Positions 19,371 through 23,524 of a DNA stretch of 39,198 nt are shown one piece after another. Position numbers and translations under genes: made by a program. How positions within the stretch are numbered: position 1 is the first letter of the stretch; each line of letters opens with the position of its first letter. The stretch is from Aureibaculum luteum (GTDB taxonomy: Bacteria > Bacteroidota > Bacteroidia > Flavobacteriales > Flavobacteriaceae), in the NCBI RefSeq assembly GCF_003449015.1, contig NZ_QRGD01000014.1, forward strand, positions 1 to 39,198, given 5' to 3'. The notes below the pieces were generated by a model, which was not told the origin of the DNA, ran no database searches, and saw only the letters and a program-made list of their open reading frames with translations.

Positions 19371-20129
19371 ATGAAAGTAATTATATCGCCAGCAAAGTCT
19401 TTAGATTTTGAATCAGAAGTGCCAACCGAAAAATATTCAGCCCCTATTTTTTTAAAAGAAGCAGAAAAATTAAGCACAGTTTTGAAGAAGAAAAGTGCCA
19501 AACAGCTTTCCAAATTAATGCACATTTCAGACAATTTGGGGCAATTAAATTTTGATAGAAATCAGCATTGGAATGTTCCTTTTACACCTGACAATTCAAA
19601 GCAGGCTATTTATGCCTTTACGGGTGCTGTATTTCAAGGTATTGATATGGCTACGCTGCCTGTTAGTAAATTGGACCAATTGCAAGATAAATTGCGTATA
19701 ATTTCTGGGCAGTATGGTTTGCTGAAACCCTTAGATTTAATGCAACCCTATCGATTGGAAATGGGTACAAAATTAAAAATTGGCAGAAAAGAGAATCTTT
19801 ATCAGTTTTGGGATGGTGCTATTACCAAAGCCTTAAATGAGGAATTAAAAGATGATGAACCCGTTATTAATTTGGCAAGTAACGAATATTTTAAAGCTAT
19901 AAAACCTAAGTTGTTAAAATCGCCTATCATTACTCCCGTTTTTAAAGATTTAAAAAATGGTGAATATAAAATGATTATGACCTATGCCAAATTAGCAAGA
20001 GGCTATATGGTTCGTTATATTATTGATTATGATGTTGCTACTGTTGAAGGTTTAAAAGGGTTTAATAGCGAAGGTTATGCATTTGATGCGAATAAGTCTT
20101 CAGAAACGGAGTTGGTTTTTACGCGTTAA
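19371..20129 (+). CDS. yaaA: Peroxide stress protein YaaA (DUF328)
   Basis: Cytoplasmic protein that in E. coli lowers intracellular iron under H2O2 stress and limits DNA damage. The longest frame starts upstream at 19323, but the family begins at MKVIISPAKSLDF, so the ATG at 19371 (252 aa) is used. Conserved blocks: ISPAKSLDF (5-13), SGQYGLLKP (112-120), QPYRLEMG (125-132), NLASNEYF (167-174) and AKLARG (206-211). It is divergent from the GH27 gene. The next gene begins 11 bp after its stop, so the two probably form an operon. No OxyR site was noticed. Confidence 0.95.
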   Translation: MKVIISPAKSLDFESEVPTEKYSAPIFLKEAEKLSTVLKKKSAKQLSKLMHISDNLGQLNFDRNQHWNVPFTPDNSKQAIYAFTGAVFQGIDMATLPVSKLDQLQDKLRIISGQYGLLKPLDLMQPYRLEMGTKLKIGRKENLYQFWDGAITKALNEELKDDEPVINLASNEYFKAIKPKLLKSPIITPVFKDLKNGEYKMIMTYAKLARGYMVRYIIDYDVATVEGLKGFNSEGYAFDANKSSETELVFTR

Positions 20130-20139
20130 AAAAAGTATT

Positions 20140-21192
20140 TTGAAAATAATTGTCACTATTCTATTTGTATTCTTTGTTTCCATTACTTATGCTCAAAAGG
20201 ACAATTTTGAGCGTTTTCTAGCTGAAGGCAAAGCAGAGTTTCATAAAAACTTTGAAGAACAAGATTATGATGTTGCCGTTAGGACACTTGAAAGAGCGGT
20301 ACAGTTAAAACCAGAAAATACGGAAGCGAAGTACTTTTTAGGCTATGCGTATAGTCGTTTAAATGCTAAGGATGGAGCAAGTTTAATTTCAATGAAACTT
20401 GATCTAACCATTAAATCAAGTGAGCAATTCGAGGCGGTTAATAAATTGACCCCAAAATATGAAGGGGAAATCGTAGTGTTAGACCCTTATTCAAAAATTA
20501 CTTCTGAATGGGGAAGTATGGCAATGACCTATTGGCACAAAGGTCAAAAAGATCAAGCATTATGGGCCTTTAATGAAGGAATAAAAAGAGGTGGGTTTAG
20601 TGAATTTATACTTGCACTAAACAAGAAAATATTAGATTCTTGTAATGAAAATTCCATTTTATTTACATCTGGAGATCAACTCACTATTCCACTTTGGTAT
20701 TTGCAAATTGTTGAAGGGTATAGAAAAGATATTGCAGTTGTTGATGCTAATTTACTAGAGTCTTCTTGGTATGCTACCTATTTAGTAAAACAGAAAGTGG
20801 TTACGTTTGATTTGCCTGAGGAAACGCTGGATAATCTAGAAATTCAAGAATGGGCTCCACAAAAAATTACAATAGGTGACTTTGCTTGGACAGTTAATCC
20901 AACCTATGAAAATACCTATTTATTTAGATGTGATCTTTTGTTGTTGAGTATCTTAAAAGCAAACAAATTTGAAAGGCCAGTTTTTTTTACTGATGGTTTC
21001 CCTAAAGATCGTCAATTGAGTTTGACTGACAATCTTTGGTCATACGGTTTTTTTGTGGATGCTATAAATTTCTATGATGATGGCCCACTTGAATTAGAAT
21101 CTGATACGTCAGAAATGGATGCACTTATGGCATTGGCCATTAAGAATAGCCCTGATGAATTGTGGTTTGTTGAATTATTGAAAAGGCTTTAA
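20140..21192 (+). CDS. Exported TPR protein with a DUF2723-tail-like domain
   Basis: The longest frame starts inside yaaA at 20077, but an alternative TTG at 20140, 11 bp after the yaaA stop, gives a perfect 19-aa signal peptide (MKIIVTILFVFFVSITYAQ); I use it. Mature protein about 331 aa. TPR-like helices follow at residues 40-79 (YDVAVRTLERAVQLKPENTE, YFLGYAYSRL) and 125-150. Then ILFTSGDQLTIPLWYLQIVE with KDIAVVDANLL matches the pattern of the soluble C-terminal part of DUF2723 membrane proteins (GDNDTxPLWYxQEVEGxRxDVxVV). No membrane helices are present. Probably periplasmic; function unknown. Residue numbers count from the TTG. Confidence 0.72.
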   Translation: MKIIVTILFVFFVSITYAQKDNFERFLAEGKAEFHKNFEEQDYDVAVRTLERAVQLKPENTEAKYFLGYAYSRLNAKDGASLISMKLDLTIKSSEQFEAVNKLTPKYEGEIVVLDPYSKITSEWGSMAMTYWHKGQKDQALWAFNEGIKRGGFSEFILALNKKILDSCNENSILFTSGDQLTIPLWYLQIVEGYRKDIAVVDANLLESSWYATYLVKQKVVTFDLPEETLDNLEIQEWAPQKITIGDFAWTVNPTYENTYLFRCDLLLLSILKANKFERPVFFTDGFPKDRQLSLTDNLWSYGFFVDAINFYDDGPLELESDTSEMDALMALAIKNSPDELWFVELLKRL

Positions 21193-21361
21193 GGGAATTG
21201 GCAAATTATCCGAGTGTATTATGTATGTTATTTTAGTGACGAAGATAAAGTCTAGGTCGCAAAAGTCACTCTTAGTGATGGTTATGTTTTTTGTGCTAAT
21301 ATCAAGTGAAAATTAGTTGGTGCTTATTAGGTTAGTTAAATGAAATATATTTTATTACCTT

Positions 21362-21449
21362 TTTAATTCTCCTTCTTTTTTCAAGGGGAGGTGCCCAGTA
21401 GTAAAATTTAATTTTTATGATAAAGTAGAAAGACGACGGGGTCAAAAAA
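21362..21449 (+). repeat. REP-like element, copy 1 (left end of DUF559 unit)
   Basis: TTTAATTCTCC, a poly-T stretch, CAAGGGGAGGTGCCCAGTAG, then AAAGACGACGGGGT at its end. It stops 6 bp before the DUF559 start codon. An inverted copy lies after the gene and a third, direct copy beyond that. Confidence 0.75.
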
Positions 21450-21455
21450 TACTAA

Positions 21456-21815
21456 ATGAGTAAACTACACAACCGTAAATATCTGGAAGAACGCAGAAAA
21501 GCACTTCGCAATAAATCTACATCAGCGGAAGCTACTTTATGGATATCGCTTCAGAGAAAACAGTTAAGAGGAAGGAAATTTAGAAGACAACATAGTATTG
21601 ATAACTATATTGTAGATTTTTATTGTGCTTCTGAAAACCTAATTATAGAGCTTGATGGTGCTGTACATTTAGGTTTAGCACAACAAAATTATGATGAGGA
21701 ACGAACTCGTTTATTGGAAGATTTAGGATATAAAATTGTTAGATTTGAAAATAAGTTGGTTTTTGAAAGTTTGGAAGGAGTGTTAGAAGAGATTGGTAGT
21801 TATTTTATAGATTAG
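21456..21815 (+). CDS. DUF559 endonuclease-like protein
   Basis: Small cytoplasmic protein of the DUF559 family, a restriction-endonuclease-like (PD-(D/E)XK) fold related to very-short-patch repair nucleases. The likely catalytic residues are E25 (SAEATLW), D54 (VDFY) and E65/D67 (IELDG), with H71 near. The 119 aa is the normal length. It stands alone between two copies of a hairpin repeat, one immediately before the start and one, inverted, immediately after the stop. In vivo function of DUF559 proteins is not settled; a role in processing the flanking repeats is my inference. Confidence 0.88.
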   Translation: MSKLHNRKYLEERRKALRNKSTSAEATLWISLQRKQLRGRKFRRQHSIDNYIVDFYCASENLIIELDGAVHLGLAQQNYDEERTRLLEDLGYKIVRFENKLVFESLEGVLEEIGSYFID

Positions 21816-21818
21816 CGT

Positions 21819-21897
21819 TTACCACCTCGTCTTTATGTTTTGCTTTCGCACACATAAATCCACTCCTCCTTGAAAAAGGAGGAGAATTAAAAAGTTA
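21819..21897 (-). repeat. REP-like element, copy 2 (inverted)
   Basis: Read on the minus strand it is TTAATTCTCCTCCTTTTTCA, AGGAGGAGTGG, ..., AAAGACGAGGTGG, the same order of blocks as copy 1. It contains the perfect hairpin CTCCTCCTT-GAAA-AAGGAGGAG (21863-21884) and begins right after the DUF559 stop codon. Confidence 0.75.
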
Positions 21898-21925
21898 TCA
21901 AATTTTCCTCTCGTATAATAGAATA

Positions 21926-22012
21926 AAAATTCCTCCCCTTTTTTCAAGGGTAGGTGCCCAGTTAGTAATATTGAATTTTTATAATAAAGTAAAAGGGCGG
22001 AGGGGTTTAATA
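21926..22012 (+). repeat. REP-like element, copy 3 (direct)
   Basis: AAATTCCTCCCC, poly-T, CAAGGGTAGGTGCCCAGT, ..., AAAGGGCGGAGGGGTTTAA. Direct copy of 21362-21449, 28 bp past copy 2. Its end runs into the stop codon (22007-22009) of the minus-strand GHL10 gene. Confidence 0.75.
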
Positions 22013-23524
22013 AACAAAAACTTCACCCTCACCAACATTATTGTTTCTACTTACAGGAACCACAACAAAAGTGGTTCTCTTTTTTAAATCGCGTTTGTTT
22101 AGGTTGATATGAGTTTCTCCTGTTAAGGCAATAATTTTTGAAGGATTATTAATTGCCATAGCTTCATCTCTTTCAAATTTATATACCAAGAATTTTACCG
22201 CTTCTTTAGCCGTATTTTCGGGTAGTTTTTTCCATGATAATTGATATTTTCTACCTTTTATTTTCGTGAGCTTTATATGAGAAACGGGGGCAGGAAAAAA
22301 GGAAGCCTTATTATTGGTTAGTGGCGGTAATGTTGGGTGTTGATAATAGTTCTCCTTTAATATTTTATTAATACCAAAGGCATTTTTATTAAAGCTTTTT
22401 GCACTAAAATAAGTTGAACCTTTAATCGTAGGTAAAGACCTATTCAAATCTAATTGCTTTTCAATTTCTGTTTTATTTTTTTGTTTCCATGCTTCATCTG
22501 TTTTACCTCCTAAGCGATACATGGCTTGCCCAATATATAGATTGGTATTATAGTTGTTTTTAATCCACCATTCTGCTATTGTTTTATAGTCAGCTTTATC
22601 ATGGCCAATTTGCCAATAAATTTGAGGAAGAATATAATCTAACCAACCCTTTTTTGTCCATAGTAAAACATCGGCATATAAATGGTCGTAGTTGGTTTGT
22701 CCGGCATCGGTATTAGAGCCTGTTGGGTCATCAGCTTTATTACGCCATACGCCAAAAGGACTAATGCCAAATTGTACCCAAGGTTTAATGGATTTTATAG
22801 TTGTATGTAATTCTTCAATGATGGTATTCACATTGTCTCTACGCCAATTATCAATTTGATTGGGATAAAATTTACCTCCAAAATTTTTAAAGGCATCGGC
22901 ATCAGGAAAAACTTCGTTGGCAATTTTATAAGGGTAAAAATAATCGTCAAAATGAATAGCATCTACATCATAATTCTGAACAATTTCTGCCACCACTTTA
23001 TTGGTATAGGTTCTAACTTCGGGTACACCTGGATTAAAATAAGTGGTTTCTCCATAGTTTAAAAACCAATCTGGCTTTTCTTTGAGTAATGCTAACGGTT
23101 TTGTTGTCGTATTTTTATAATTAATTAAAACCCGATAAGGATTTAACCATGCATGAAATTCCATTCCCCTTTTATGAGTTTCTGCAATTGCAAAGGCCAA
23201 CGGGTCGTAATAGGGTTTTGGTGGACTGTTAATACTATCGGTTAAATAGGCTGACCACGGTTCATAACTGGAATTGTAAAAAGCATCTGCCGTAGGGCGG
23301 ATTTGAAAAATGATTGCATTAAAATTCAAGTCTTTAAACTGATCTAACAGTTTTATAAGTTCTGCTTTTTGTTTAGTTGGATTTAAATTCTTTTTGCTAG
23401 GCCAATCAATATTATTGACCGTTGCTACCCAAACACCTCTAAACTCATGATTTATTTTTTGGGCAAAAATAAATTGTGCAGAGAATAATACAATTATTAT
23501 TGTGTAATTTATCTTCTTAAACAT
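22007..23524 (-). CDS. GHL10 (family 10-like) glycosidase-like protein
   Basis: Exported protein of the glycosyl hydrolase-like 10 family (DUF187). Signal peptide about 1-21 (FIFAQ). The barrel domain begins EFRGVWVATVNNIDWPSKK (27-45) and includes FNAIIFQIRPTADAFY, GMEFHAWLNPYRV, VDAIHFDDYFYP and WLDYILPQIYWQ, all conserved in the family. A fibronectin-type-III-like C-terminal segment starts near residue 415 (HIKLTKIKGRKYQLSWKK). Related proteins (YngK, DigH) act on peptidoglycan glycans; E. coli DigH cleaves denuded strands. That role here is inference. 505 aa. Its stop codon lies at the edge of a repeat copy. Confidence 0.92.
   Translation of the reverse strand: MFKKINYTIIIVLFSAQFIFAQKINHEFRGVWVATVNNIDWPSKKNLNPTKQKAELIKLLDQFKDLNFNAIIFQIRPTADAFYNSSYEPWSAYLTDSINSPPKPYYDPLAFAIAETHKRGMEFHAWLNPYRVLINYKNTTTKPLALLKEKPDWFLNYGETTYFNPGVPEVRTYTNKVVAEIVQNYDVDAIHFDDYFYPYKIANEVFPDADAFKNFGGKFYPNQIDNWRRDNVNTIIEELHTTIKSIKPWVQFGISPFGVWRNKADDPTGSNTDAGQTNYDHLYADVLLWTKKGWLDYILPQIYWQIGHDKADYKTIAEWWIKNNYNTNLYIGQAMYRLGGKTDEAWKQKNKTEIEKQLDLNRSLPTIKGSTYFSAKSFNKNAFGINKILKENYYQHPTLPPLTNNKASFFPAPVSHIKLTKIKGRKYQLSWKKLPENTAKEAVKFLVYKFERDEAMAINNPSKIIALTGETHINLNKRDLKKRTTFVVVPVSRNNNVGEGEVFVY

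Follow-up and report, generated by a model that had tools for sequence, protein, structure and literature searches.

DUF559 genes and the short hairpin repeats that frame them are associated across Flavobacteriaceae and Proteobacteria; the type of repeat goes with the clade of the nuclease, within a single genome too, and the units turn over among close relatives in copy number, orientation, identity and occupancy. Gene and repeats together probably form a small selfish unit, in which the repeats would be the cognate recognition sequences of the nuclease and spread would be driven by repair. The window analysed here is the whole 39,198-nucleotide stretch of Aureibaculum luteum (genome G000). 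An earlier note on it had described a DUF559 gene surrounded by three copies of a REP-like repeat, and all three copies were confirmed at the following positions:

21365-21443, plus strand: repeat copy 1, hairpin outermost, tag GACGACGGGGTC facing the gene
21456-21815, plus strand: DUF559 gene, 119 aa (PF04480 profile match E 2e-34, alignment of 51 sequences, AF2 and Foldseek)
21819-21888, minus strand (inverted): repeat copy 2, tag CCACCTCGTC facing the gene
21928-22008, plus strand: repeat copy 3, direct relative to copy 1

The hairpins of copies 1 and 2 point outward and their tags inward to the gene. Copies 1 and 3 aligned with 84% identity over 80 columns, and the hairpin ends of copies 1 and 2 form a 40-nt inverted pair that is 80% complementary. 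The CTCC/GGAG-type hairpin that had been read as common to the copies is present in all three (CTCC..TTTTTTCAAGG..-type); the proposed GACGRGGTG-type end fits them loosely, with ends that read GACGACGGGGTC in copy 1, GACGAGGTGGTA in copy 2 (reversed) and GGCGGAGGGGTTT in copy 3. From the gene outward, copy 2 consists of CCACCTCGTC, the inner stem TTTATGT..ACATAAA, TCCA and the hairpin CTCCTCC..GGAGGAG, a form also present in the relatives G121 and G131. Copy 3, which is kept in the relative G120, abuts the 3' end of the GHL10 gene (22007-23524, minus strand), one of the two neighbours of the DUF559 gene in the window; the other is a TPR gene. The sequence of this TPR gene (20077-21192) is absent from the same place in G131 and G119, and sequence that matches the yaaA end (21277-21390) recurs on both sides of it, as if the TPR gene had come in with a duplicated edge. 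The window repeat type was read at four more places in the genome (L007, L008, L011 and L012). The genome holds three solitary DUF559 genes, namely the window gene and a tandem pair of another clade (C1:815242 and 815821) that carries a different flanking repeat, CACCCCTAAAGTCCCCTCAAGGGGAC, and a fourth PF04480 match lies inside an 845-aa frame.

Flanks were compared by a motif-free test in 120 genomes of the same family as the window, drawn from 119 genera; 60 of the genomes had a PF04480 match (fusions and weak matches counted). Fifty-three solitary DUF559 genes with a full or nearly full domain were taken, including the window's own and three in which the open frame continues into a uroporphyrinogen-III-synthase-like protein; helicase-sized fusions, fragments and weak C-terminal matches were omitted, and flanks were usable at 52 of the 53. 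For each gene the 250 bp before it and the 250 bp after it (counted from the stop codon for DUF559 genes and controls alike) were aligned locally in either orientation, and the best score was compared with a threshold of 34. Flanking repeats were found at 40 of 52 DUF559 genes versus 6 of 447 other genes at the same loci (Fisher p 8e-42; one of the six, L068, overlaps a Y1_Tnp gene), and size-matched control genes reached the threshold in 3 of 129 cases. They are thus not equally common next to unrelated genes; equal frequency there was an outcome that the earlier note had named as counting against its reading. The window gene scored 50 for inverted and 89 for direct repeats, and 3 of 447 controls reached at least 50 in either orientation. 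At 12 of 52 DUF559 genes there was no flanking repeat at threshold. Judged by eye, paralogous coding sequence of neighbouring genes seems to account for the direct repeats at L090, L095 (two genes), L106 (GA clade) and L104 (IIPY), and if at most these five doubtful rows are set aside, 35 of 47 remain; the long repeats of L079 and L080 were left unclassified within the count, and the tandem pairs at L095 and L114 make the rows partly non-independent. Direct repeats dominate in this family (median score 67 versus 19 in controls), and many loci have direct copies or mixed polarity. Direct copies belong to the pattern as much as inverted ones, and a framing by inverted repeats only was rejected.

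An independent set comprised 80 loci, nearly all proteobacterial by name and, with seven Azospirillum genomes among them, not fully independent of one another, from which L143 (short flanks) and L179 (a run of N) were dropped. In the remaining 78, flanking repeats were found at 47 DUF559 genes versus 7 of 431 controls, with the downstream flank taken from the end of the matched domain for DUF559 but from the stop codon for controls; 31 of 78 had no flanking repeat at threshold. Before removal of L179 the count was 48/79, and scores of at least 50 went from 39/79 to 38/78. The inverted score alone was sufficient at 43 of these 78 loci. The terminal inverted repeats proposed earlier therefore hold for these loci and for a minimal unit in G131 (described below), but not for the many flavobacterial loci with direct or mixed copies. 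A CCTCTCCC..GGGAGAGG hairpin lies within 250 bp at 41 of 79 proteobacterial loci, with a density of 1.6 per kb within 250 bp versus 0.012 per kb beyond 2 kb. The form GTCATTCC..GGAAT, a proteobacterial form of the CGTC super-family, had 0 copies within 500 bp of DUF559 in 79 proteobacterial loci and 9 further out. By strict patterns, which matched nothing at 58/78 proteobacterial and 28/52 flavobacterial loci, the tag is turned to the gene on 19 of the 24 sides that could be read in Proteobacteria and on 22 of 38 in Flavobacteriaceae. Twelve further regions were taken from plasmid records, without control genes; after L124 was set aside, where DUF559 lies within a large protein, the two flanks aligned with a score above 45 in 7 of 11 (L119, L122, L125, L126, L127, L128 and L129, though some of the signal at L129 seems to come from the coding sequence of a neighbour). 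One example each from a cyanobacterium, Deinococcus and Neisseria is similar. Internal stop codons occur in the DUF559 genes of L138 and L143 (Alphaproteobacteria) and of L074 and L101 (Flavobacteriaceae), so that gene decay next to the repeats is not exceptional.

Flavobacterial DUF559 genes sort into three groups, IIPY, GA and HN, the last being the window's clade. IIPY genes carry repeat P1 (CACCCCT plus hairpin; 13 rows), GA genes carry P3 (CCCTAAAGGG; 10/11), and at HN genes the repeat is P2 or a form akin to it with a CGTC-type tag; the window's copies fall outside the strict P2 pattern. On a DUF559 tree, built quickly and with strong support for few of its branches, the repeat labels required 14 changes versus 28.8 when shuffled (0/200 as low); P1 required 4 versus 11.9 and P3 2 versus 9.4 (0/500 as low for each), and P2 alone did not cluster (8 versus 8.5). 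No motif was found in 18 of the 52 tree rows, and P2 occurs on two IIPY genes (L110 and L112). Clade labels taken from N-termini misplace L067, L081, L087 and L094, and the tree sorts better. The single genome G069 holds all three clades, each with its own repeat: L067 with P2, L088 with P1 and L090 with P3. P1 and P2 together reached a density of 0.92 per kb up to 250 bp from the gene versus about 0.01 per kb beyond 1 kb; nearness of the P1-P3 motifs is partly circular, because the motifs were drawn from some of the same flanks, whereas the sorting of motifs by clade and the motif-free flank test are not. These results bear on the least probable of the readings considered, in which the repeats are terminators or RNA-stability hairpins that pile up in gaps and DUF559 lands where gaps are permissive. 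Many copies are indeed intergenic GC-rich hairpins, and a terminator-like hairpin is kept at the window locus in G119, a relative that lacks both the DUF559 and the TPR gene there. Yet matched flanks were rare in same-locus controls (the 3/129 above), termination needs neither a clade-specific sequence nor a conserved tag, and DUF559 genes of Proteobacteria show no enrichment of GTCATTCC..GGAAT, which is another type of REP.

At the level of whole genomes, P1 was present in 22 of 120 (a reversed control pattern gave 0 matches), in 15 of 21 genomes with an IIPY gene versus 7 of 99 that lack one (p 1.3e-9); for at least five copies the figures were 10/21 versus 0/99. G047 was counted as IIPY from a gene fragment at a contig end, and without it the P1 comparison becomes 14/20 versus 8/100 (by hand). 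The co-occurrence of repeat number with DUF559 presence on which the earlier note had staked its reading is therefore found for the cognate clade and, more weakly, also for RAYT. P2 was found in 8 genomes, all with a solitary DUF559 (in G013 a broken gene of another clade, which accompanies CGTC-type repeats as the only DUF559 found there), and its counts fail to separate DUF559 (8/37 versus 0/83) from RAYT (8/48 versus 0/72); the 37 "solitary" genomes include G047 as well as G013 and G110, which have broken genes only. Y1_Tnp matches, some of them weak, occur in 48 of 120 genomes, among them each of the 10 genomes that have at least five P1 copies (10/48 versus 0/72) and all 8 P2 genomes, so a second explanation has to be weighed, namely that a RAYT or other transposase moves the repeats and DUF559 is a passenger in repeat-rich places. 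We consider this quite improbable. Motifs P1, P2 and P3 were found in the flanks of 0 of 26 usable RAYT loci (of 32), of which 13 scored at least 34 with 450-bp flanks and so have other repeats on both sides, as REPtrons should. Within the RAYT-positive genomes, 13 of the 17 that have a cognate DUF559 carry P1, versus 1 of the 31 that lack it; G073 and G106 have P1 repeats and DUF559 with no Y1_Tnp match, and the repeat type goes with the DUF559 clade. The window genome has three Y1_Tnp matches, all away from the DUF559 locus.

Comparison of close relatives revealed turnover of the units. At the window locus, the DUF559 unit of G121 and G131 is oriented opposite to that of G000 and G120, and G131 has a simpler unit with two inverted repeats. 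The G120 gene is identical to the window gene at 359 of 360 positions; the G121 gene is 79% identical (286/360) between neighbouring blocks of 89-94%, which points to replacement or independent insertion and not to a simple flip. Between recJ and rpe, tandem DUF559 copies number one in G131, two in G000 and four in G120, and G119 is empty. The single G131 unit (L288) is minimal, consisting of ATTGTCCCCTTGAGGGGACCTTAGGGGTGTT, the DUF559 gene and AACACCCCTAAAGTCCCCTCAAGGGGACAAT, and its ends are 31-bp inverted repeats with 30/31 positions matching by eye. At the same locus in G122 and G126 the DUF559 gene is HN-like by its N-terminus and carries other repeats, and that of G126 looks broken.

The 31-bp sequence also stands alone elsewhere in G000 and once forms an inverted pair 19 bp apart (L337). 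Besides the query site it was found at no fewer places than the following: at least 20 in G120, at least 14 each in G000 and G121, at least 10 in G126, at least 8 each in G131, G123 and G129, at least 5 in G132, at least 2 in G128 and at least 1 in G119; among the matches listed there were none in seven genomes of the genus. The 31-bp repeats are not strictly tied to an intact cognate gene: G121, G132 and G123 (68% complete) have the repeats, yet no such gene was identified in them. This comparison leaves aside G126 and G128, whose DUF559 genes carry no clade assignment. At two solo-repeat sites the repeat is present in G000, G120 and G121 and missing in G131 and G119, with flanks too diverged and boundaries too blurred for a junction or target duplication to be found. 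Neither a target-site duplication nor a clean empty site was found at these two sites or at recJ-rpe, a comparison of low power with relatives about 80% identical there.

Escherichia coli offered a further candidate for an empty site. Here ycjD (annotated DUF559) lies between sapF and fabI, and in L210 proteobacterial-type tagged hairpins stand downstream of it. A match to ycjD was obtained in 3365 of 5426 complete E. coli genomes, and the laboratory strain BW25113 carries the gene. In three ycjD-less strains the sapF-fabI gap (L242, L240, L241, L243 and L244) holds efflux and regulator genes, which indicates allelic replacement, and the case was rejected. Matches to the repeat region do not follow ycjD, with about 2-6 per genome with or without it among the 60 records listed. 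The empty sites with target duplications that the earlier note had proposed to look for in relatives were not found.

The enzyme itself is predicted to have a Vsr-like/EDxHD nuclease fold with conserved acidic and histidine active-site residues. The window gene scored 118.2 bits against PF04480 (curated cut-off 20.6), and the Pfam scan gave DUF559, a sub-threshold MTES_1575 nuclease match and nothing else. Residues E25, W29, F42, Q45, D54, E65, D67, G68, H71, D80, R83 and R96 (window numbering) are invariant over 51 aligned sequences. An AF2 model (pLDDT 87.1, pTM 0.76) was matched by Foldseek to 3hrl, a Neisseria protein, then to I-Bth0305I (3r3p; E 3.6e-5) and more weakly to Vsr (1vsr; E 0.01). 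A sequence profile searched against solved structures gave the same order, with 3r3p at E 0.0016 and Vsr short of significance (E 0.22). Another 13 chains, at E 0.4-0.8, were disregarded as unrelated toxin B subunits at chance level. With Vsr, E. coli YcjD and Caulobacter VsrA the window protein shares a DUF559/Vsr-like nuclease. In the consulted part of PMC12907096, VsrA (DUF559) is reported to be needed for a DNA-damage response in cells without the ScmA methyltransferase, which suggests that at least one DUF559 member acts on DNA in vivo, and is predicted to be a mismatch-repair endonuclease; that part proposes a role in mismatch repair and makes no link to repeats. Such a fold and such a prediction would suit a host very-short-patch-like repair enzyme, for which the repeats are fragile sites and the association is protective and not selfish. 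This is very improbable, since a selfish unit accounts better than a housekeeping repair gene for the patchy presence (60/120 genomes), the tandem copies and the replacement at the same site.

For the selfish unit, we infer that the nuclease cuts the repeats and that repair, instead of true transposition, drives the spread. The nuclease would recognise its own hairpin plus tag and nick or cut at or beside its own repeat type; host recombination repair could then copy, invert, tandemly amplify or replace the unit, because the repeats on both sides would serve as homology arms. The repeats found around the gene also occur as solo copies without a gene. True transposition, in which DUF559 would be a transposase-like nuclease that binds specifically to the hairpin ends and itself cuts out and inserts the unit, with solo repeats as non-autonomous derivatives, is unlikely but deserves the most weight among the alternatives. 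It accords with the inverted ends of the G131 minimal unit and many proteobacterial loci, with a DUF559 unit between sufB and sufC, and with an array in G122 (L292) whose units, by eye, start with the last ~25 bp of the DUF559 gene followed by the repeat and so resemble internal-deletion derivatives of a gene-bearing unit. Against it, we know of no strand-transfer activity for a lone 119-aa PD-(D/E)XK/EDxHD domain, no target duplication was seen, and direct copies are numerous. Because of this, and because direct and inverted copies are both common, a homing-like route is preferred over true transposition with moderate confidence. Whether the same account extends to DUF559 at large is evenly balanced: the family may constitute the dedicated enzymes of a large RAYT-independent class of REP-like elements, each with a clade-specific hairpin and tag and spread by cutting and recombination repair, from Bacteroidota and Proteobacteria (in numbers) to Cyanobacteria and Deinococcota (one example each).

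Taken as a whole, the earlier interpretation is partly supported, and its analogy with REP elements and their RAYT transposases holds for anatomy: the unit is built like a REPtron in which a homing-type nuclease takes the place of the HUH tyrosine transposase. As in the REP/REPIN-RAYT REPtrons (described in the consulted parts of PMC3733652 and PMC6006769), short tagged hairpins occur as solo copies, an enzyme gene lies between its own repeats, the repeat type goes with the enzyme lineage, and an inverted pair is present (L337). Repeats of the flanked gene also stand solo in the genome, for the window type and the 31-bp type alike. The flanked gene of REPtrons is HUH/Y1, whereas here it is a Vsr-like PD-(D/E)XK/EDxHD nuclease, with no HUH/Y1 domain (PF01797) in the Pfam scan of the window gene; DUF559 units also differ in often having direct copies and in a CACCCC-type or CGTC-type tag. 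The GTAG tag that REPtrons have at the hairpin foot was not found, as the window and 31-bp copies, by reading, carry GACG/GGCG..GGGG or CACCCC. The DUF559 unit therefore works like a REPtron but is not a member of REP/RAYT, because the flanked gene is not HUH.

In sequence, the repeats of the window's clade resemble the CGTC REPs, compared here by their text description in the consulted part of PMC3733652, where they are said to lack a dedicated transposase, their mobiliser is an open question and forsetii is among the species that have them. Copy 2 of the window and P2 read CGTC, an inner stem and TCCA, and by reading fit the traits of that super-family (CGTC tag, 8-9 bp stem, short loop, CCA tail) except that their loop is longer; the description does not suit P1, P3 or the repeats at DUF559 genes of Proteobacteria. 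DUF559 as the enzyme of all CGTC REPs is unsupported in Proteobacteria, and since the GTCATTCC..GGAAT form is not near DUF559 there, the link is claimed only for repeats found at DUF559 genes. With I-Bth0305I (3r3p; consulted part of PMC3943268) DUF559 shares the fold, the ExDGxxH motif and the character of a selfish nuclease gene; it differs in being free-standing, 119 aa long and without an extended DNA-binding arm, in not being seen in an intron or intein, and in its likely target, the repeated hairpins.

Widespread as they are, DUF559 genes mostly lack an explanation. In the open-access journal literature searched, none of the titles and abstract starts listed dealt with DUF559 together with repeats. 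If the nuclease acts on its repeats, many "orphan" REP families would gain an enzyme, REP populations could be maintained in a non-HUH way, and the recurrence of this small gene between other genes would be explained; gene and repeats are suggested to be a tiny, overlooked mobile unit.

Several minor observations were made on individual loci. On a Sphingomonas parapaucimobilis plasmid (L126, 3962-4372) the DUF559 gene lies between sufB and sufC, and in L120 (3854-4390) between a GatB/YqeY-domain gene and dnaG; both neighbourhoods are usually tight. At L066, L069 and L070 (G039, G079 and G077) DUF559 continues in frame into the protein that was recognised by eye as uroporphyrinogen-III-synthase-like, with a linker that resembles translated repeat, as if the unit had landed at the start of that gene. 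C-terminal tails (e.g. HTPSPSQEGN) at L289, L293, L099, L100, L108, L118 and L120 likewise resemble translated flanking repeat, and these genes therefore seem to overlap their own downstream repeat. The Y1_Tnp genes L115 and L116 of the window genome are flanked by other types of repeat, GCTCC..GGAGC and GTCCCTTCAGG, and have none of the three DUF559 motifs. Solo P1 repeats of G033 (L311, L313 and L316) sit in units of ~130 bp with ATTATCACGTTT..AAACGTGATAAT-like ends, and L339 (G013:C8:487900-489900) is a tandem array of ~9-10 units of ~155 bp, each with one CGTC-type repeat.
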